A stretch of 64,000 bases of DNA from Bdellovibrionales bacterium CG10_big_fil_rev_8_21_14_0_10_45_34 (GTDB taxonomy: Bacteria; Bdellovibrionota; Bdellovibrionia; Bdellovibrionales; 1-14-0-10-45-34). The stretch is taken from the NCBI GenBank assembly GCA_002778785.1, contig PEZS01000013.1:1-64000 (forward strand), written 5' to 3'. The position numbers and the translations under genes were made by a program. How positions within the stretch are numbered: the first letter of the stretch is position 1; every line of letters starts with the position of its first letter. Below, piece by piece: positions 24,264 to 44,417 of the stretch. The notes beneath the pieces are model-generated. The model searched no databases. It saw only the letters and a program-made list of their open reading frames with translations, and was not told where the DNA came from.

Positions 24264-24599
24264 TATCGACATCGAGTCTAAGTTTGCTCGAAAGATGGGG
24301 TCTTGCTCTTCTACATCCGCAATAACTCTATGTGGGTGCAAGTCTCACGCTGTCAACGCCCTTTAGCGGTGAGTTTCCCCGCAGCTTTTTAGTAGATGGG
24401 GAATCCAATCCAACGATCCAAGCACATAACCCAAGCACATAACAGATACGTGCCCCCTCCCCGCTCATTTGAGGGCGTTTCTCACTTGGCAAAATGAGTG
24501 TTCTCCCCAGGGGGGTTGCATTGTCGCAACTGTGATCTATCATGTGACGTATTATTGGCTCGCACCGAAAGGCCAACAGAAAGGCCATGAGAGCATTTG
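24264..24599. other. 336-bp intergenic region with small repeats
   Basis: No gene is supported. The gap holds a direct repeat of CCAAGCACATAAC near 24418-24442, and an inverted repeat with arms CTCATTT and AAATGAG around 24465-24500. The latter could be a terminator or operator for the downstream exported protein. Confidence 0.4.
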
Positions 24600-25412
24600 A
24601 TGACCCACAGAGCAAGAATCCTACTTTTGTTATTTTTTTGCCAACCCCTTTTTGCTGATGAGGTGGCCCTCATAATCGGTTTTTACGATCAAAGGGTTAT
24701 TAAGGTGGGTGACTCTGAGGTTTATCGTAGCGCCATCAACTCCATATACCCTGACATGAGAGTTGAAATCATAGAAGTTCCCGAAACATTTGCCAGTGAG
24801 TTGGAATTGTACCATCAAGTTTACGACCGTATATCGAGCGAAGATCGTCTCTCAATCATTGTTTTTCGTGGCCATAGGTACGAAGGAATGAATACTAACT
24901 TTGAGAACCTTGGCGGAATCTCGATTGGTGGTCGGTATGGTCTACATTTTTCTCCGGCCTTGACTGACCCCGTCTCAGTACCGCCAGCACTACGCCCGTT
25001 AATAGGAATGTCTTCCCCCACTTTAAATGTGGTTTTCGAAACTTGCAGCTTGCTTTGCGACCCTAGAAAGCAGAGGCAACGGCTCCTAACTCTGGCTAAG
25101 TTTTCAAAATCCCTAGGTGCAGAAAATGCTTATATCTTTGCATCGACACAGGATGTCTCTATGATTGATGCTCTTGAGAGATTAGATTCATTGCAAGAAC
25201 GAATGAATCAGTACGACTTTTGGTTAACAAGAGGGTTGATTAAAGTTTTGGATCACGTAAAGAAAAAAGTCCTCTTGGGTAACAACAATGGTCTTATTAT
25301 ATCCATTCAGAATGGAAAAACCGTTGGACAATCGGAGTTTCAATTGACTCCCCAAAGCTTGTCGTCGGCACTGAGTTCCCGCTTCTGTGCCAACTTATTT
25401 ACACAGAAATAA
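24600..25412 (+). CDS. Exported protein with a caspase-like His/Cys pattern
   Basis: A protein of about 270 residues with a signal peptide (residues 1 to about 19, cleavage near LFA-DEV). I do not recognise the family. Two hydrophobic strands each end in a candidate catalytic residue: LSIIVFRGH (His92) and LNVVFETC (Cys149), spaced 57 residues apart. This matches the strand-GH and strand-(D/E)xC layout of clan CD (caspase-like) cysteine peptidases, though GHG is replaced by GHR. A GAGAG ribosome-binding site precedes the ATG at 24600. The gene stands alone beside the repeat island. Peptidase function is an inference from motif layout only. Confidence 0.6.
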   Translation: MTHRARILLLLFFCQPLFADEVALIIGFYDQRVIKVGDSEVYRSAINSIYPDMRVEIIEVPETFASELELYHQVYDRISSEDRLSIIVFRGHRYEGMNTNFENLGGISIGGRYGLHFSPALTDPVSVPPALRPLIGMSSPTLNVVFETCSLLCDPRKQRQRLLTLAKFSKSLGAENAYIFASTQDVSMIDALERLDSLQERMNQYDFWLTRGLIKVLDHVKKKVLLGNNNGLIISIQNGKTVGQSEFQLTPQSLSSALSSRFCANLFTQK

Positions 25413-25438
25413 CTCGTGCTTGTTGTTTACAAAGCACT

Positions 25439-25550
25439 GCCCTCTCATCGAACTATACAAAGCTGAGGTAACTCGCCCTCTCATCGAACTATACAAAGCT
25501 GAATGTTGGCTCACCCTCTGGACGAACTATACAAAGCTGAGTGGTAACTC
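25439..25550. repeat. Tandem repeat, three 36-38 bp units
   Basis: Three head-to-tail copies of a 36-38 bp unit, each containing CGAACTATACAAAGCTGA (at 25449, 25485 and 25523). The copies abut directly, with no spacer, so this is not a CRISPR array. It begins 27 bp downstream of the caspase-like gene stop. The unit has no evident coding or hairpin role. Confidence 0.75.
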
Positions 25551-25669
25551 GCCTGTCTATTTAGAAGATTCTCTCTTCTTGGATGATCTCATCGACTTTA
25601 GTCCTTGTTAGAAGTGAAGTCGCGCCTCAAAACTTTTTTACGTTTGCTCTCCGACTAGTTGCAATATAT

Positions 25670-25850
25670 CAGCTTGTGTTACTAAAGCTCTGCGTCTGCC
25701 CCTCCATGCCTAATCTGTGTTTGCAATACTCTGTGTCTGCTCGGCTTATCCTGCATTTTGGAAGGTATAATAAGGCCGTGTCCTCATTTTGGCGAGATCT
25801 ATCAGCCTGTATTTGTAAAGCTTTGCGTCTGCCACTCCCGCAAGAATCGG
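25670..25850. repeat. Repeats of the transposase 3' end plus a GGCCGTGTCC motif
   Basis: A sequence close to ATCAGCTTGTGTTACTAAAG..CTGCGTCTGCC at about 25670 recurs at about 25800 inside the 3' end of the Y1 transposase gene, and a weaker copy lies near 25725. Between them, at 25772-25795, is AAGGCCGTGTCCTCATTTTG, the third occurrence of the recurring element motif. The layout suggests duplicated or deleted element ends next to their transposase. Confidence 0.5.
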
Positions 25851-26473
25851 CTAAGCCTATGATTTCTCGGTACGTAGGCGACAAACCCTGCGGCTTCGTT
25901 GCGGTTTTTTTCAAAGTAGCTTTGGATGTTTGCAAGAGTTCTTCGGCCCCATCCGACAAGGCGAGTGAAGGGGCGCTCAATCCAGAACTGCTTAGACTTT
26001 CTTAAGCCGAGCCGTTTATGAATTTCTTCATACTTACGAGCCATTTGGGCTGCAAAAAACCTGAGAAATCTAAGAAATTCCCTTCGGGCTTCATTGTAAG
26101 GTTTGGACCGATTGGGATCGATGAGAAGGTGAATGTGGTCTTTGTTAATCGCTTTATCTTTGATTTTGAGTTGATACCTTTTGGCAGCAGATTCTAAAAG
26201 CCGGGTGATTGATACTTGGCTTTTGGTGAACCAGATGTTTTTACCAAGCCTTGCCTTAAAAACGGTGTGAATAAGTTTAGTAGTGTCGAAGGGTCGTTTC
26301 ACTTTTCTGTAGTCAAGCGACCCACCATATTGGTGCTGAGTTTCAATCCACCATAGCTTCGTGTCTCGTCGTGGTTCTGTGATCAGAGACAGTTGTTCCT
26401 TGCGAGAGTTGCTACCTTGCTTGGTAGTCGACTGCTTGCTAATCGACTGCTTGTTAGTCAGTTGCGTCTTCAT
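25802..26473 (-). CDS. Y1 (HUH) transposase, REP-associated type
   Basis: A 223-residue single-strand transposase of the Y1/IS200-like superfamily. The HUH motif is HIH at residues 113-115 in NKDHIHLLIDP, and the catalytic tyrosine is probably Y186 in ANIQSYFEKN. The N-terminal 27 residues are Ser/Lys/Gln-rich and encoded by a degenerate 15-bp repeat. No partner tnpB and no full IS ends are visible, so it resembles REP-associated tyrosine transposases (RAYT), which are domesticated or act on short palindromes. The nearby GGCGTGTCC motif copies would be candidate substrates. Confidence 0.78.
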   Translation of the reverse strand: MKTQLTNKQSISKQSTTKQGSNSRKEQLSLITEPRRDTKLWWIETQHQYGGSLDYRKVKRPFDTTKLIHTVFKARLGKNIWFTKSQVSITRLLESAAKRYQLKIKDKAINKDHIHLLIDPNRSKPYNEARREFLRFLRFFAAQMARKYEEIHKRLGLRKSKQFWIERPFTRLVGWGRRTLANIQSYFEKNRNEAAGFVAYVPRNHRLSRFLREWQTQSFTNTG

Positions 26474-26616
26474 TTAAGTGCCCTCTTTCATTTTTGTCCG
26501 CTCCTTCGTAAAATTATCGATTTGTCCGTTCAGTCAGGCTGTTCTAGTGCGTACTGAGCCACCTATTCTCAAACACTCTTTCGTTTACTTAATTGCTTGC
26601 CCAATCACCTACCCCT

Positions 26617-26742
<126 letters not shown>

Positions 26743-27089
26743 TTGGCCTATTTATCTGGTGATCTCACCACTTCCTTTTGCAGCCTGTGTTGCTACTCTG
26801 TAGCCCTTTAATCACGCCAGAGATTTTATCGGACATTCTTTTTCTCACAAAACTAAGATCTCAAGATACCGTCGAAAATTTGTCCGACATTAACCGCATT
26901 CACCCAAACAAGCAATCTATGATTTCACAAAATGCTTTGTGTTATTAAATACTTATGATACCGCTACCTTTTTTCTCAGAGAGATAGTCTCTGAAAAGTA
27001 AGAACCTAGTGTTTTATTTCAGTTGCGACATGCTGAAAAAGCAGATCCCTGCAAAAGAAGAAGAGAGACGCTATCGGTGACAAAGAAGA

Positions 27090-27137
27090 GATTGTTGAGA
27101 GTTAAGATTGTTGAGAGTTAAGATTGTTGAGAGTTAA
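27090..27137. repeat. Three perfect 16-bp tandem repeats
   Basis: The unit GATTGTTGAGAGTTAA occurs three times in perfect head-to-tail order at 27090, 27106 and 27122. No coding frame is associated with it. Confidence 0.9.
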
Positions 27138-27310
27138 GAGACTTCTAGCTATCGTGCCTTTTCGAAACTGCTCTATAGCTCGTATTCGGTTCCTCTGCTG
27201 ACTATTCAAAACAATCTCTGCTTGCTCTTCCTCCGGTCCCCCGCTTGTTGTTTTTTGAGTTCCCTGGAATTCTTAAACACCAATTGTTAACGAGACATAG
27301 TGGGTGAAAA

Positions 27311-27353
27311 GAAAGAGAGGGAGAAAGAGAGAGGGAGAAAGAGAGAGGGAGAG
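27311..27353. repeat. Purine-only repeat tract
   Basis: A 43-bp stretch of A and G only, built mainly from a 14-bp unit GGGAGAAAGAGAGA repeated about two and a half times. Such a tract could form triplex DNA or slip. It is non-coding. Confidence 0.8.
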
Positions 27354-27783: not shown

Positions 27784-27821
27784 GAGCGAGCATTGAATCA
27801 GTCTTATTCAACTGCTCGCTC
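27784..27821. terminator. Strong hairpin at the mutS 3' end
   Basis: Arms GAGCGAGCATTGAAT and ATTCAACTGCTCGCTC pair over 15 bases with a single bulged C and a 7-base loop. The hairpin reaches into the mutS stop codon. No long T-run follows on either strand, so it may act as a 3' mRNA stabiliser or a weak terminator. Confidence 0.55.
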
Positions 27822-30800
27822 ATTCAAAAAACGGAAGTTTCGCTTGGTAAGGTTCGCTAGACGCTGACTTTCTTGATGCTTCACTGTGAGAACCACCCTC
27901 GGTGGAAGTGCTACCTTTTCTCTGCAAACTCTCCATTAACTCGTGCATTCTTTCAGAGCATCGGCCGCCATTCACAATTTCGTTGAGTTGTATCTTCGCT
28001 TGAAGATCAGCAACCTCGGTCGCAACTGCTAAAGGGCTTAGATTATTCACGTCAATTTGCGAAAGCTGTAGAATAGTTTCTACAATTTCACGCATAATTG
28101 ACATGTCGGAAGCCCCTAACATAGCCGTCACCGGAAGACCTTGCCCACGAAATTTTCGAGCATCATCCTTCTCATTGACTTGTTTCGATCTAATTTCGGC
28201 AAACTTACTTAGACCGCTTGCTTTTTGCGCCTCATAGGCTTCTTCAGAGTTCAATTTACGAGAACCCAGGTATTCACCATGGCGATCGAGCCCGCCTTCA
28301 AAAGTTTTTTCAACATCCGCCGCACTCACACTCAAACTTCCGAGTTCGCCCTCAGTTGAGCCTCCCAACTGAGACAGAATTTGAAACGCCCTCGACACCA
28401 CAGAGTTTTTCACTCCCGCAAGCTTAGCCACTTCAATTCCGTAGCTTTTACCGGCAGCTCCACTTTTTAGTCGATATGTGAACTCTATCCCATGTGAACT
28501 TTCACTCACCGACATATGAAAATCATGCACATTCTCAAAATGGCTCATCATCTCCGTTAACTCATGGTAGTGAGTGGCAAAGAGCACCTGACATTTTACA
28601 TTTTGCGTGAGCTCTTCAAATATAGCCGACGCCAAACTGAGACCATCATAAGTACTGGTGCCTCTTCCGATCTCATCAAGAAGAACAAGAGAACTTGCAG
28701 TAGACTCTTTAAGTACATTCGCCGTCTCGACCATTTCTACCATGAAGGTTGAAAGCCCATCAGTGAGTGAGTCGCTCGCGCCGATCCGGGTAAATATCGA
28801 ATCAAATACCGGCAGCTTTGCCTCACTAGCTGGCACGTCCGAACCCACTTGATGAAGGAGTGCGCAAAGAGCTACTGCTTTCATCTGTGTGCTCTTACCG
28901 GCCATATTCGGACCTGTCAGCAAAACCGAGTGCTCCGATTTTAAAGAAAAGTCGTTGGCGACGAACCTTGTGGATATCATTCTTTCAAGCACCGGATGCC
29001 TCAATGAAAGAATTCTTATGTTACGAAGTGGGTCGACTTGTGGCGTACAAAAACTTCTTTCCAGAGAGTTCCAAGCAAAACTCGAAACAACATCGAGATG
29101 AGCGATCTTATCAGCAATGTGATTGACGATATTTTGAAGCGCCAATAACTCGGCTCGCAAGTTGTAAAATAGGCTGGATTCAAGCTCTACCCTGCGGGTT
29201 CGGCTCGAAAGAACTCTTCGCTCTAGCTCATTGAGTTCATCGGTTGTGAACCTCTCGGCATTAACAAGTGTTTGTTTGCGCAAGTACCTCTCGTTTGGAA
29301 CTTTGTCTTTGTGAGAGTTAGTGATCTCAATGTAATAGCCAAAAACTTGATTGTACCGAATCTTCAAAGACGAAATCCCTGTCAAACTTCGCTCTGCCTC
29401 TTCCATTTTTGCAATTGCAGTGCGACTGTCTTCTGAAAGTTCGATCCATTCATCTAACTTCGGGTCAACCCCTCGTTTAAAGATTCCGCCGTCCGAAAGG
29501 TTTGCCGGCAACTCTTCTTTAAACTCACGCTGAATCTGAGAGATCCACTCCTTCAAAAGCGACAACTCTTTGCCAGCAAATTCTTCAGTGCGGCTGCGCA
29601 CTGCCATTGATTCATTCATGTGCGACGTTGCCGACTGATTTTCTAACAGTGCAGACGAACGACTTCTTGGCGGTGTGTTCGATTTACTTTTGAAGAGTGT
29701 CGCAAGTTGATCTCCTGTCGCCGCCTTCGATTGATCCTCTGTGTCCCATCCAAAAACCTTGCTAGAGAGTTCATTGTTTCGCTCGAGAAGCCCAATACTC
29801 AGCTCCAGTGAATGGGCTATGCTAGCAATATCATTTGGAGCTACTGAGTTTGTTGAGATCTTGCCAAACTTTCGCGGAAGATCTCCGATCTGCGCGAGCA
29901 CCTCTCGTGTTTGCTTGAGTTCTTCAAAACGGCTTTTGTGCCATGCGACTTTTTGCTGCCTTTTCTTTATTTCTTGCTGATCTTTGAGGGGAAAGGTCAA
30001 CCAACTCCTCAGCAGTCTTGCGCCCATAGAAGTCTTAGTAGTGTTAATGGCCCAAAACAGACTTCCATCAGTTTTCGCCCTTTGGGTTTGAAAAATTTCG
30101 AGATGTCTGCGAACTTCCTCCGAAACATAGGCAAAGTGACTCAGTGGACGGTACTCAGGAGGTCGCAAAGTTTTGGCTATTAGGCCGCCTTGCGAATTGA
30201 TAAGATACTTTGCCAGAAGCCGCCATGCCGCGGGAGACTTCTCAAAATTGAAAGCCGTGTTGGGATGACTCACTTCGCCTCTGTCATTTTCTGCCAAATC
30301 CTGCAAATTTTCTGAAACACGCAGTAACTGCAAATAGCTCAAAGTTTTCGCATCTTGCGAAGTTTCCGAAACCTGCAAAGACTTCAAACCCTGCACATCT
30401 ACTCTAGCTTCCGCACCTTGTGAGTGATCCCCCGCTTGCACTGCCTGTACCGGGTGTGACATGCACAGTTCATTGGTAAAGGCGTCTTTCATTTGCTGCA
30501 AAAAGCCCGGTGACAACGAGTCATTGATCAAAAACTCTACGGGCTGAAAGAGCTTCACTGTCTTAATGGCTTCTGATTGTGATGAGGCACTACACCAAAA
30601 GCTCTCCCCCGTCGTAGACTCGATAAAGGCAATCTCGTACCTATCTTGTGCACTTGGACCGATGCTCGACGAACCTTGTGCACTTGGACCAATGCTAGAC
30701 GAACCTTGTGCACTTGGACCAATGCTAGACGAACCTTGTGCACTTGGACCAATGCTAGACGAACCTTGTGCGCTTGGACCAATGCTAGACGAACCTTGTG

Positions 30801-31401
30801 CACTTGGACCAATGCTAGACGAACCTTGTGCACTTGAGCCTATGCTTGGTGAACTCTTAAGGTGTAGATTTTTATCAGGCCTACTCCCTTCAATTGCTAC
30901 CTTCTGTTCGACTTCAGCCGCATGAGCGTGTCTGTTGACGTGTTGGTGGTTACCCGAATCAATAGATGAAGCGGTCTTAGCGCAAGAGGAAGCTCCGGCT
31001 CCGGCATCAGTGATGGTCGCGATAAAACTTTGTTTGCTTGGCTCAAGGGTCTCAGGATCTAGAACCATTCCTGGCGAAAGAACTCTTGTAACTCCCCTTT
31101 TAACGATGCGCTTTGCTTCAGAGGGATTTTCTAATTGATCACAGAGAGCGATACGAAATCCATGCTCCAAGAGTTTATTTATGGGTTTAGCGACACTATG
31201 GTGAGGTACTCCGCACATAGGTGTTTCATCACCTGATTTTTTGTTGCGGTAGGTTAGAGTGACGCCCATTACTGGCGCAGCAACGATGGCATCTTCGAAG
31301 AAAAGCTCGAAGAAATCTCCCATCCGAAAAAAGAGCAGTACGCCCGGATACTGGTCTCGAATTTCTTGATACTGTTTCATCAACGGTGTTGTTTTTTTCA
31401 T
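27820..31401 (-). CDS. mutS: DNA mismatch repair protein MutS, enlarged with tandem repeats
   Basis: MutS recognises mismatches and small loops and recruits MutL. The mismatch-reading F-x-E is F30-E32 in RMGDFFELF. Walker A is GPNMAGKST (about residue 830) and Walker B is LVLLDEIGRGTS. At 1193 residues it is far longer than usual (about 850). Most of the excess is a low-complexity insertion at about residues 132-252 between the mismatch-binding and connector domains. It contains six near-identical 10-residue repeats GSSSIGPSAQ (193-252) preceded by one degenerate copy. A smaller Ser-rich insertion, near ALLENQSATSHMNES, lies in the core region, and the C-terminus is also extended. The catalytic parts look intact, so it is probably functional. 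Confidence 0.95.
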   Translation of the reverse strand: MKKTTPLMKQYQEIRDQYPGVLLFFRMGDFFELFFEDAIVAAPVMGVTLTYRNKKSGDETPMCGVPHHSVAKPINKLLEHGFRIALCDQLENPSEAKRIVKRGVTRVLSPGMVLDPETLEPSKQSFIATITDAGAGASSCAKTASSIDSGNHQHVNRHAHAAEVEQKVAIEGSRPDKNLHLKSSPSIGSSAQGSSSIGPSAQGSSSIGPSAQGSSSIGPSAQGSSSIGPSAQGSSSIGPSAQGSSSIGPSAQDRYEIAFIESTTGESFWCSASSQSEAIKTVKLFQPVEFLINDSLSPGFLQQMKDAFTNELCMSHPVQAVQAGDHSQGAEARVDVQGLKSLQVSETSQDAKTLSYLQLLRVSENLQDLAENDRGEVSHPNTAFNFEKSPAAWRLLAKYLINSQGGLIAKTLRPPEYRPLSHFAYVSEEVRRHLEIFQTQRAKTDGSLFWAINTTKTSMGARLLRSWLTFPLKDQQEIKKRQQKVAWHKSRFEELKQTREVLAQIGDLPRKFGKISTNSVAPNDIASIAHSLELSIGLLERNNELSSKVFGWDTEDQSKAATGDQLATLFKSKSNTPPRSRSSALLENQSATSHMNESMAVRSRTEEFAGKELSLLKEWISQIQREFKEELPANLSDGGIFKRGVDPKLDEWIELSEDSRTAIAKMEEAERSLTGISSLKIRYNQVFGYYIEITNSHKDKVPNERYLRKQTLVNAERFTTDELNELERRVLSSRTRRVELESSLFYNLRAELLALQNIVNHIADKIAHLDVVSSFAWNSLERSFCTPQVDPLRNIRILSLRHPVLERMISTRFVANDFSLKSEHSVLLTGPNMAGKSTQMKAVALCALLHQVGSDVPASEAKLPVFDSIFTRIGASDSLTDGLSTFMVEMVETANVLKESTASSLVLLDEIGRGTSTYDGLSLASAIFEELTQNVKCQVLFATHYHELTEMMSHFENVHDFHMSVSESSHGIEFTYRLKSGAAGKSYGIEVAKLAGVKNSVVSRAFQILSQLGGSTEGELGSLSVSAADVEKTFEGGLDRHGEYLGSRKLNSEEAYEAQKASGLSKFAEIRSKQVNEKDDARKFRGQGLPVTAMLGASDMSIMREIVETILQLSQIDVNNLSPLAVATEVADLQAKIQLNEIVNGGRCSERMHELMESLQRKGSTSTEGGSHSEASRKSASSEPYQAKLPFFE
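30646..30855 (-). repeat. In-frame 30-bp tandem repeat within mutS
   Basis: Six near-identical 30-bp units (30646-30825) plus one diverged unit (30826-30855), encoding GSSSIGPSAQ repeats. Only a few base differences separate the six copies. The unit is a multiple of three, so copy-number change alters MutS length without breaking the frame. Confidence 0.95.
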
Positions 31402-31745
31402 AGGGAATTTCGTATTTCATCCCTCATTGAGGCACCAGCTTCTTTTGATAAGTCTTACTGCGTCAAGCGGTGATAGTTACTGGAATCATCTGTTTTCCCA
31501 TATTGAACACACCCACTCACACCCAACGTAGCCAACCCCGCAGCGTTTGATTAAAGCTTGTGCTGAAGCACTTCGTCTTAAAAACGACTTTTAACAAAAA
31601 AAGAACAAAAAATCGAAGAAAGGCGGCTTGTCGGTGTTGTATCGCTGAGAATGTTGGTTACTGCTCCAGCCAAAACTCCGCTAAAGGAAAGAAAGGAAAG
31701 AAAGGAAAGAAAGTAAGTAAGTAAGAAAGAAAGAAATGCGAAATC
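31402..31745. other. 344-bp intergenic region upstream of mutS
   Basis: This gap between the MFS gene 3' end and the mutS start contains no gene. It must carry the mutS promoter. Its left flank next to the MFS stop holds a simple-sequence tract (31683-31737). I see no confident -35/-10 pair. Confidence 0.45.
31683..31737. repeat. A/G-rich microsatellite
   Basis: A tract made of three copies of GGAAAGAAA, then three GTAA units, then three GAAA units. It is almost entirely purine on the plus strand and lies a few bases from the MFS stop codon and the recurring GGGCGTGTCCTC motif. Confidence 0.85.
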
Positions 31746-41810: not shown

Positions 41811-43138
41811 TTGTTACCTCGACGATGAGATCTCGAAATTTCATCGAACTTTTTACAAACAAACTGAATCTTTTCTTTGACTGTAGCGCTTGCCTTTGAC
41901 GGGGCAAAAATCTTTGCAAGCTCCTGCCGAGAAAAGAGTTCTCGCATTACAGGATCTTCAAGACAGGCGTCACTAAGACTTTGATCACGACCCAGATTAT
42001 GACTCAGCGACTGAACGTGTTCGTAAGCTTCTTCCCGAGTTAAACCTTTCGAGACCATCTCAACTAAGAGTCGCGAACTCATCAACATACCGCGCGAAAG
42101 GCTCATATTCTCTGCCATTTTTGAATCATTAATCTTCAGACTTTCTAATAGCTCTCTTAACCTTGCTGTCGCGTAGTGCACGAGTATCATGCCATCTGGT
42201 AAAATCACTCTCTCAACACTTGAGTGAGATATATCTCTTTCGTGCCAAAGAGCCTGATTTTCAAGCGCGCTGAGTGCGTATCCTCTCAAAAGCCTAGATA
42301 TTCCTGTAAGGTTTTCTGCAGAAATTGGATTTTTTTTATGAGGCATGGCACTGCTGCCTTTTTGCCCTTTGCTGAATCCCTCAGTGACTTCTTGCAACTC
42401 GCTTCTTTGTAGGTGCCTAAGTTCCACGCTCAATCTTTCAATAAACCCGCCGTAAACGGCAAGGGCTGAAAACAATTGGGCGTGTCTGTCCCGGGGGATT
42501 ACCTGCGTCGCAATCCACTCCGGCTTAAGACCAAGTTCTTTACAAACTTTTGTCTCTAATTCTGCTGGTAAATTCGAATAACAACCAACGGCCCCACTGA
42601 GCTTGCCAGTGCTAGCTTCTTCAAACGCGACTTCAAGCCTCGTATATTGACGAATCCATTCACTCAAATACCCCGCCAGCTTAAAACCAAATGTTGTTGG
42701 CTCCGCATGCATCCCGTGGGTACGCCCTGCGCAAGCAACATCTTTGTACTTTTTGCTCATCGAGCTCAACTGACGACCTAGTTTTAGCAGCTCTGCTGAA
42801 AAGATACTCCATGACCTTTTAATTTGAAGACTCATCGCTGTATCGAGCACGTCACTAGATGTTAAACCAAAGTGCACATATCTCCCGGCATCTTGCGCCT
42901 TATCGGCAACTTCTTGAACAAATGCGATCACGTCATGCTTAGTGATCTGCTCTCGTTTCTTAATGTTAGCCGAACTTAATTTATTAACTGCTTGAATTTT
43001 CGCAGAAGCCTTTTGCGGGATAATTCGCATACGAGCCTGCACGCGTGCAACTGCCTTTTCTACTTCAAGAAGCGATGCCCATCTGGACTCGTCTGACCAA
43101 ACATTTGCCATCTCAGCTCGGGTGTAACGCTCTATCAC
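41807..43138 (-). CDS. purB: Adenylosuccinate lyase
   Basis: A 443-residue lyase cleaving SAICAR and adenylosuccinate with release of fumarate. The N-terminal MIERYTRAEMANVWS matches the short PurB type and supports the GTG start at 43138. The signature GSSAMPHKKNPISAENLTG carries the catalytic Ser loop, and AGRTHGMHAEPTTFG and HFGLTSSDVLDTA are other active-site regions. The start lies 26 bp inside the 3' end of the preceding unknown gene. Confidence 0.96.
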   Translation of the reverse strand: MIERYTRAEMANVWSDESRWASLLEVEKAVARVQARMRIIPQKASAKIQAVNKLSSANIKKREQITKHDVIAFVQEVADKAQDAGRYVHFGLTSSDVLDTAMSLQIKRSWSIFSAELLKLGRQLSSMSKKYKDVACAGRTHGMHAEPTTFGFKLAGYLSEWIRQYTRLEVAFEEASTGKLSGAVGCYSNLPAELETKVCKELGLKPEWIATQVIPRDRHAQLFSALAVYGGFIERLSVELRHLQRSELQEVTEGFSKGQKGSSAMPHKKNPISAENLTGISRLLRGYALSALENQALWHERDISHSSVERVILPDGMILVHYATARLRELLESLKINDSKMAENMSLSRGMLMSSRLLVEMVSKGLTREEAYEHVQSLSHNLGRDQSLSDACLEDPVMRELFSRQELAKIFAPSKASATVKEKIQFVCKKFDEISRSHRRGNK

Positions 43139-44417
43139 TGAGGTGTTCTCCTCTCTTTTGTTGTTCTGTTCTCCACCATTTGGTCAGATTATCCAAAATA
43201 CTCTTGTCCTTCTTTAGGGATCCGAGCCAGGAAATTTGACTCCAAACCTCGGGTTGAGAAAGATAGAGATTTCGAATCTGGGTTCGCGGATCACGCGATA
43301 TGTCCGCTTCAGAGTAATGCACAAAAAGAGACGGTCCTAATTCTGATAAATCTTTTCTCGATTCCATAGGCATTTCAATAACACTCACTTCAGAGGCCGG
43401 GATGCGGCTCTCTAAATTACGAACAATCATCTCCGCCATGCGTTCGTGATAGCCTCTTTGCACTCTCTGTGAGCAAGGAAGCCTAACCCAAACGTCATAG
43501 TCCTCTGCCCTATCGGAAGATTCGACGATCATAAAGTTCTCGCGGGTAAAGTCTTGAGCCTCGTCGTTAACAATCCAAATATACGACGGTAAATCTCGAT
43601 GACATTCTCCTTTATCAAAGCGAACTCTAAATCGTGTCCATACCCACTTGGGCTCAATGAAACTTGTATAGACCGATCGAACGCCTTTACTCAAGATGAA
43701 GTCGAGCTCCCAGCTGCTTAAGCAAAGTACGAAATTCTTCCCTAAAACAACACCCGATCGGTCTGCCTGTATTTCAACACCGTCTAAAAACCTACCGTGG
43801 AGTGATAAGTCTAACAATTTGTTAGAAACAATAACGTTAACATCTTCTTTTCTGAGGTTCTCTTGCACTTGATTCACAAAGTCTTTAGAGGAGTGGCGGT
43901 GCTGAATGCTCGCCGCCAAAGGAAGACATGCCATCGGCTCCAACATATCTTTGAACTCCCTGACACTAATGGCATCCGCTGTGAGCAAAAACCTAAACAC
44001 CCAATTGTCTTCGATGGGCCGACTCACTAGATTTTTCCAAACGCCCTTTTCAAGGACGGAATGATCGTTCAATTTTTTAAGGTGATCTAGATCGCCTGCC
44101 AACCCGAACCGCGAAGTCCACTGATGCTGGGCAACTGCGCCGCGCAATTCCAACGGTGCCGAAGCAGTCCAAACCGATAGACCCTGGGAAACATCCTCAT
44201 ACTGAGAGTTATCACTAAAGTAATCGGCCGCGTCCTCTAGAGCGTAGCTCGGCTTAAAAAAGGCGAAAGGCCCGACCCAATCTTCCGATGAACAACTTCC
44301 GAGGCAACTTGTCAGATCTATCCATGACACTTGCATGCCCGTTTTTCTAAGACGCTTCGCTAGCCAAGCGCCTCGCCCAAAAATGGAAACTATAACTACA
44401 TCTGCTCTGGTATCCAA
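43113..44417 (-). CDS. Unknown protein with dinucleotide-binding-like N-terminus, inside the purine operon
   Basis: A 434-residue protein I do not recognise. The N-terminus has a hydrophobic strand followed by GRGAW and a helix (DVVIVSIFGRGAWLAKRLRK), suggesting a Rossmann-type FAD/NAD-binding fold of the amine-oxidase kind, though the glycine spacing is not fully canonical. The rest shows no clear catalytic motif. It starts at TTG, overlapping purN by 22 bp, and its end overlaps purB by 26 bp. This tight packing inside a purine run implies co-regulation and possibly a related function. Confidence 0.65.
   Translation of the reverse strand: MDTRADVVIVSIFGRGAWLAKRLRKTGMQVSWIDLTSCLGSCSSEDWVGPFAFFKPSYALEDAADYFSDNSQYEDVSQGLSVWTASAPLELRGAVAQHQWTSRFGLAGDLDHLKKLNDHSVLEKGVWKNLVSRPIEDNWVFRFLLTADAISVREFKDMLEPMACLPLAASIQHRHSSKDFVNQVQENLRKEDVNVIVSNKLLDLSLHGRFLDGVEIQADRSGVVLGKNFVLCLSSWELDFILSKGVRSVYTSFIEPKWVWTRFRVRFDKGECHRDLPSYIWIVNDEAQDFTRENFMIVESSDRAEDYDVWVRLPCSQRVQRGYHERMAEMIVRNLESRIPASEVSVIEMPMESRKDLSELGPSLFVHYSEADISRDPRTQIRNLYLSQPEVWSQISWLGSLKKDKSILDNLTKWWRTEQQKRGEHLSDRALHPS

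Follow-up and report, generated by a model that had tools for sequence, protein, structure and literature searches.

A 30-bp coding minisatellite in a predicted disordered connector loop of an unusually long MutS

Is a coding minisatellite neutral when it lies in a mutation-avoidance gene, or does its copy number bear on what the gene does? The mutS gene of Bdellovibrionales bacterium CG10_big_fil_rev_8_21_14_0_10_45_34 provides a clean case for this question. The gene lies in a window of 64,000 nucleotides (contig PEZS01000013.1, assembly GCA_002778785.1, positions 1 to 64,000), to which all coordinates refer unless a locus handle precedes them. An initial annotation, made from the sequence alone, had proposed that the array belongs to the class of repeats whose slippage MutS limits, and that its length could tune the mutation rate or report on it. 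Our analysis instead points to an in-frame coding minisatellite that probably arose through a genome-wide expansion unpoliced by mismatch repair and is tolerated in a MutS loop predicted to be disordered. The kind of element is ordinary; its place is unusual.

The gene and two of its domains are located as follows.

27820-31401, minus strand: mutS, a single unbroken open frame of 1193 aa (1198 in the domain-I search)
31057-31389, minus strand: mismatch-binding domain I (PF01624), residues 5-115, with the Phe-X-Glu motif F30/E32
28366-28923, minus strand: ATPase domain V (PF00488), residues 827-1012, with intact Walker motifs

The product matches the NCBIfam models PRK05399.1 (806 bits, cut-off 480) and TIGR01070 (717 bits, cut-off 642), and Pfam finds MutS_I, III, IV and V; these domains and a full-length match above the curated cut-offs identify it as MutS1. 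F30 and E32 are invariant across 33 sequences, as are the ATPase motifs TGPNM.GKS, D909/E910 and H944. Connector domain II gives no Pfam MutS_II match; AlphaFold builds its strands and helices around the insertions, and they align with those of relatives. Domains I, III, IV and V, the catalytic motifs and the fold are shared with canonical bacterial MutS1 (PDB 1e3m, 1w7a), as connector domain II probably is too. This protein differs in its length: insertions predicted to be disordered, together with a C-terminal tail, add about 345 residues.

The repeat itself occupies a short part of the gene.

30643-30852, minus strand: 30-bp tandem array of seven in-frame units, residues 184-253, consensus SSSIGPSAQG
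30673-30822, minus strand: units 2-6 (residues 194-243), pairwise identity 96.7% or more, the sole change silent

TRF reports one array in mutS (30645-30836; period 30, 6.4 copies, 97% matches, score 363), and the best score among 500 dinucleotide shuffles of the gene was 54, so the repeat that the initial annotation had described is real. Counting in coding phase gives seven 10-codon units inside one open frame: a coding minisatellite, with tandem units of multiple-of-three length that preserve the frame as had been claimed. Units 2-6 differ at no more than one base, unit 1 is diverged (6 nt off consensus) and unit 7 carries 3 changes. Diverged edge copies around a uniform middle are usual for arrays that grow or homogenise from the inside, and the near-identity of the inner copies supports recent expansion, as the initial annotation had it, or homogenisation. 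Codon changes between units comprise 6 silent and 3 replacement changes (P ~0.016, from nine changes only); this silent excess is a hint of selection to maintain the repeat peptide, which may be weak. A strong drop in complexity is limited to the repeat, residues 184-253, and is absent from the other insertions, which contradicts the earlier picture of a larger low-complexity insertion. DNA and peptide searches found no copy of the repeat elsewhere in the organism's own genome. Three array units fold into DNA hairpins better than shuffles do (z -3.8, -3.1) and one unit does not; the gain could stem from pairing between repeated palindromes and is only a hint.

The array is part of a larger departure from the MutS of relatives, which we mapped by alignment and by structure prediction.

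30658-31011, minus strand: main insertion, residues 131-248, 118 aa, from the alignment with 36 MutS homologues
31006-31026, minus strand: connector strand 1, residues 126-132, on the upstream side of the main insertion (E. coli ~132-138 by alignment)
30619-30639, minus strand: connector strand 2, residues 255-261, directly past the array
30370-30462, minus strand: second insertion, residues 314-344, connector domain, pLDDT below 50 over 311-341
29605-29781, minus strand: third insertion region, residues 541-568 and 578-599, domain III, pLDDT below 50 over 551-608
28243-28335, minus strand: linker insertion, residues 1023-1053, after domain V
27823-27969, minus strand: C-terminal tail, residues 1145-1193, ending YQAKLPFFE

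The main insertion consists of most of the array and about 53 non-repeat residues. It parts the strands FIATI and YEIAFIE, between which relatives have only a few residues, and in the alignment to E. coli MutS it falls at the turn around residues 139-142. This turn belongs to the connector domain, which spans residues 128-266 according to PMC4521584 and 116-266 according to PMC3848065. The repeat had been placed between the mismatch-binding and connector domains; it lies instead within the connector, at the turn that joins strands 1 and 2. The earlier figure of about 340 added residues holds for the protein (~345), but the 118-aa insertion supplies only about one third of them; the other extra stretches are residues 314-344, 541-609, parts of 1023-1100 and the 49-aa C-terminal tail. 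An AlphaFold model built with 33 sequences matches the E. coli MutS structures in the PDB and has strands at 126-132 and 255-261, with pLDDT below 50 over residues 139-250. The main insertion is accordingly predicted to be disordered between two well-formed strands, and residues 314-344, 541-609, 1023-1100 and the C-terminus also come out disordered. If the model is right, a natural MutS can accommodate over 100 disordered residues in its first connector turn. Past domain V, the linker is without the QMSLL/QLSLL/QMDLF-like motif, of the sliding-clamp-binding type, that relatives carry; QAKLPFF at the C-terminus (27826-27846, residues 1186-1192) is possibly this motif, relocated.

Alignment to other bacterial MutS, which the initial annotation had suggested, indicates that the insertion is lineage-specific: it is absent from all 36 homologues, of which 28 belong to the same order, and from ten further MutS with long open frames. 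Elsewhere in the order, MutS open frames run from 769 to 978 aa (domain-I search, 141 genomes), which makes this MutS a clear outlier, and the phylum sample contains one further frame above 1000 aa among the matches listed, mostly upstream open frame. The extra length of other long MutS in the order and phylum was examined and set aside, being a run of N in one case (G104) and mostly upstream frame in others (G160, G017, G022 and more). The collection contained one genome for the species and none other from the same genus or family, and a genome-contig scan returned 9 distant MutS, 0 of the same lineage. Proteome-wide lengthening is rejected as the cause: the median length ratio in 107 orthologue pairs is 1.006, and the neighbouring pur and mpl proteins are of normal length. 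Long internal insertions number 6 here and 5 in relatives among these pairs, with MutS the most extreme.

That MutS is such an outlier in its own genome means that something may favour insertions in MutS particularly, and the silent-change excess keeps a functional reading of the repeat alive. The insertion might have a fixed job, binding a partner or spacing the connector, with the repeats as a multivalent or length-setting linker under selection; the joint extension of several MutS loops and the C-terminus would fit such a role, as would the extreme length among the 107 proteins. The changes between units are very few, however, no relative shares the insertion, so that conservation is not visible, and nothing similar to its sequence was found elsewhere in the genome. 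We regard a fixed job as unlikely, although it is the alternative that we take most seriously.

Tandem arrays are abundant outside mutS. We counted 58 in 0.80 Mb sampled from this genome (7.3 per 100 kb), whereas 0.78 Mb from relatives had 14 (1.8 per 100 kb; binomial P ~2e-7), and strong arrays (score at least 150) numbered 15 in the same 0.80 Mb against 0 and 0 in relatives (1.18 Mb together). The periods range from 5 to 105 bp, which is beyond the range of mismatch repair. Almost all in-gene arrays have periods divisible by three and code for low-complexity peptides, among them (AP)n, (TN)n, (PPVVVE)n and QTQEG; by score, the mutS array would place second in the sampled 0.86 Mb. With so many long arrays in the genome, the one in mutS appears to be a single case of a genome-wide process. 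Against this view, the enrichment in total arrays is smaller when the comparison is with other, non-Bdellovibrio families (7.3 vs 4.0 per 100 kb; 16 arrays in 0.40 Mb). Short tracts are ordinary: homopolymers of at least 8 occur at ~114 per Mb, vs 128 and 180 in relatives, di- and trinucleotide tracts are not raised relative to relatives, and G+C is alike. A genome with many long arrays yet ordinary short tracts separates two kinds of repeat instability.

The top score in the sample belongs to a 105-bp array (2.5 copies of a 35-aa repeat) near the N-terminus of a GspK-like type II secretion pseudopilin gene (L086:9028-10629, G000 contig 13). Long 7-8-bp arrays, which are rare in bacteria, occur at L100:16545-16699 (AGTTAAG x 22), L092:408-504 (GTTTCTG x 14) and L090:3209-3302 (CAAGTCTT x 12), and the sampled relatives have none of this type. 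A mutY-like gene (L051:15055-17334, G000 contig 11; TIGR01084 261 bits, just below the cut-off of 286) carries an in-frame repeat of the (TN)n type in its C-terminal part, and its frame, 760 aa from stop to stop, continues without a stop into an apparent lipoprotein (LLMGCQ). This gene would be the second with a role in mutation avoidance to contain a repeat, possibly by coincidence.

Work on other repeats indicates why size matters. In E. coli tolA, whose 15-18-bp repeats are likewise in-frame, minisatellite-sized and changeable in copy number without frameshift, knocking out mutS did not significantly change contraction, and the authors explained this by mismatch repair being limited to 1-4 bp; contraction was down to 15% in a recA mutant and hence is RecA-dependent (PMC3477136). 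The same paper cites a like absence of mutS effect for 28 VNTRs with units above 5 bp. MutS recognises mismatches and loops of about 1-4 nt, for which a 30-nt loop is too large. With repeats of 15-18 bp already insensitive to mutS in E. coli, the 30-bp array falls outside the class that MutS polices, and the earlier assignment to that class does not stand. The tolA repeats differ from the mutS array in coding for a structural domain; they are variable between strains, and the effects have been measured (PMC3477136).

On the reading we favour, tandem duplication, active across the genome and not policed by mismatch repair, would have expanded a 30-bp segment of mutS. The expansion would have fallen in a lineage-specific, predicted disordered loop at the turn between connector strands 1 and 2, where extra length could be absorbed with the fold undisturbed. 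MutS would most likely still function, and copy number may drift with, within wide limits, little expected effect on mismatch repair; we infer that the array changes by recombination or long slippage, not by small-loop slippage.

A close known counterpart in a mismatch-repair gene is the 6-bp (GCTGGC/CTGGCG) switch in mutL of Salmonella and E. coli, likewise an in-frame repeat with potentially changeable copy number (PMC2955026). Its three units lie in the ATP-binding pocket (PMC3477136, PMC2955026), and gain or loss of one unit breaks MutL (PMC2955026). The mutS array differs from a switch of this type in having 30-bp in-frame units, a size at which mutS loss would not matter (PMC3477136), and in lying in a predicted disordered loop remote from the active sites. 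With the loop disordered at a hairpin turn, as predicted, adding or removing 10 residues would not be expected to inactivate MutS, unlike a change in the mutL repeat. Mono- and trinucleotide repeats are also known in mutS and mutL of more than 100 species, but these are short tracts, and PMC2955026 describes no 30-bp minisatellite in an inserted loop.

The proposal that the repeat tunes the mutation rate would have copy number set loop length, and loop length the coupling of MutS to MutL, so that mutation rates differ within a population. It draws on the position of the array in the connector, one of two MutL interfaces in the MutS sliding clamp (PMC4521584), on the possibility of in-frame copy-number change and on the precedent of repeat-length switches in mutL (PMC2955026). 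The contacts mapped in E. coli lie elsewhere in the connector, however, at Q211, Q212 and D246 (PMC4521584), and the predicted disorder at the hairpin turn, an array size outside MutS control and the abundance of such arrays outside mutS all weigh against tuning, which we consider very unlikely. As the connector touches MutL, a small effect of loop length is possible. One could picture the connector loop as an entropic spacer of variable length, in which the number of repeats determines how well the sliding clamp recruits MutL. Such a spacer, slightly less probable still, would let RecA-dependent changes, unsuppressed by mismatch repair, give heritable, reversible shades of mutation rate.

We give little credence to the idea that the insertions impair MutS, that the lineage is a mutator and that the repeat-rich genome is the consequence. 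The unusual length, the moved or lost clamp-binding motif and the wealth of tandem arrays would agree with it, but all motif residues are conserved, the genome's MutL is intact and of normal length (648 aa), and neither homopolymers nor di- and trinucleotide tracts, which mismatch repair protects, are enriched, with G+C like that of relatives. Indirectly, this absence of enrichment in mono- to trinucleotide tracts suggests that mismatch repair by MutS probably works, as the conserved sequence also leads us to expect. An error in the array or its copy number is scarcely credible: the assembly is a draft of 16 contigs and repeats are often mis-sized in assemblies, but the units carry distinct silent changes, diverged edges and a preserved frame, and the array spans just ~200 bp within a 203-kb contig.

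Several features of the surrounding DNA complete the description of the locus. A 434-aa protein (43113-44417) lies within the pur cluster, between the purB/purC/purL/purF side and the purM side; it has no NCBIfam match and matches TIR below threshold only. An imperfect TTTC/TTAC tract (31687-31736) directly follows the end of an MFS transporter gene in the region upstream of mutS, whose start is ~290 bp away; no promoter match was found near the tract. Downstream of mutS, the intergenic stretch 24400-27350 is dense in tandem arrays, with units of 38 bp (3.1 copies, at 25439), 8 bp (CTACTTAC, 13 copies, at 26637), 16 bp (3.2 perfect copies, at 27089) and 14 bp (2.8 copies, at 27314). These arrays adjoin an IS200-like (Y1) transposase gene at 25802-26473.
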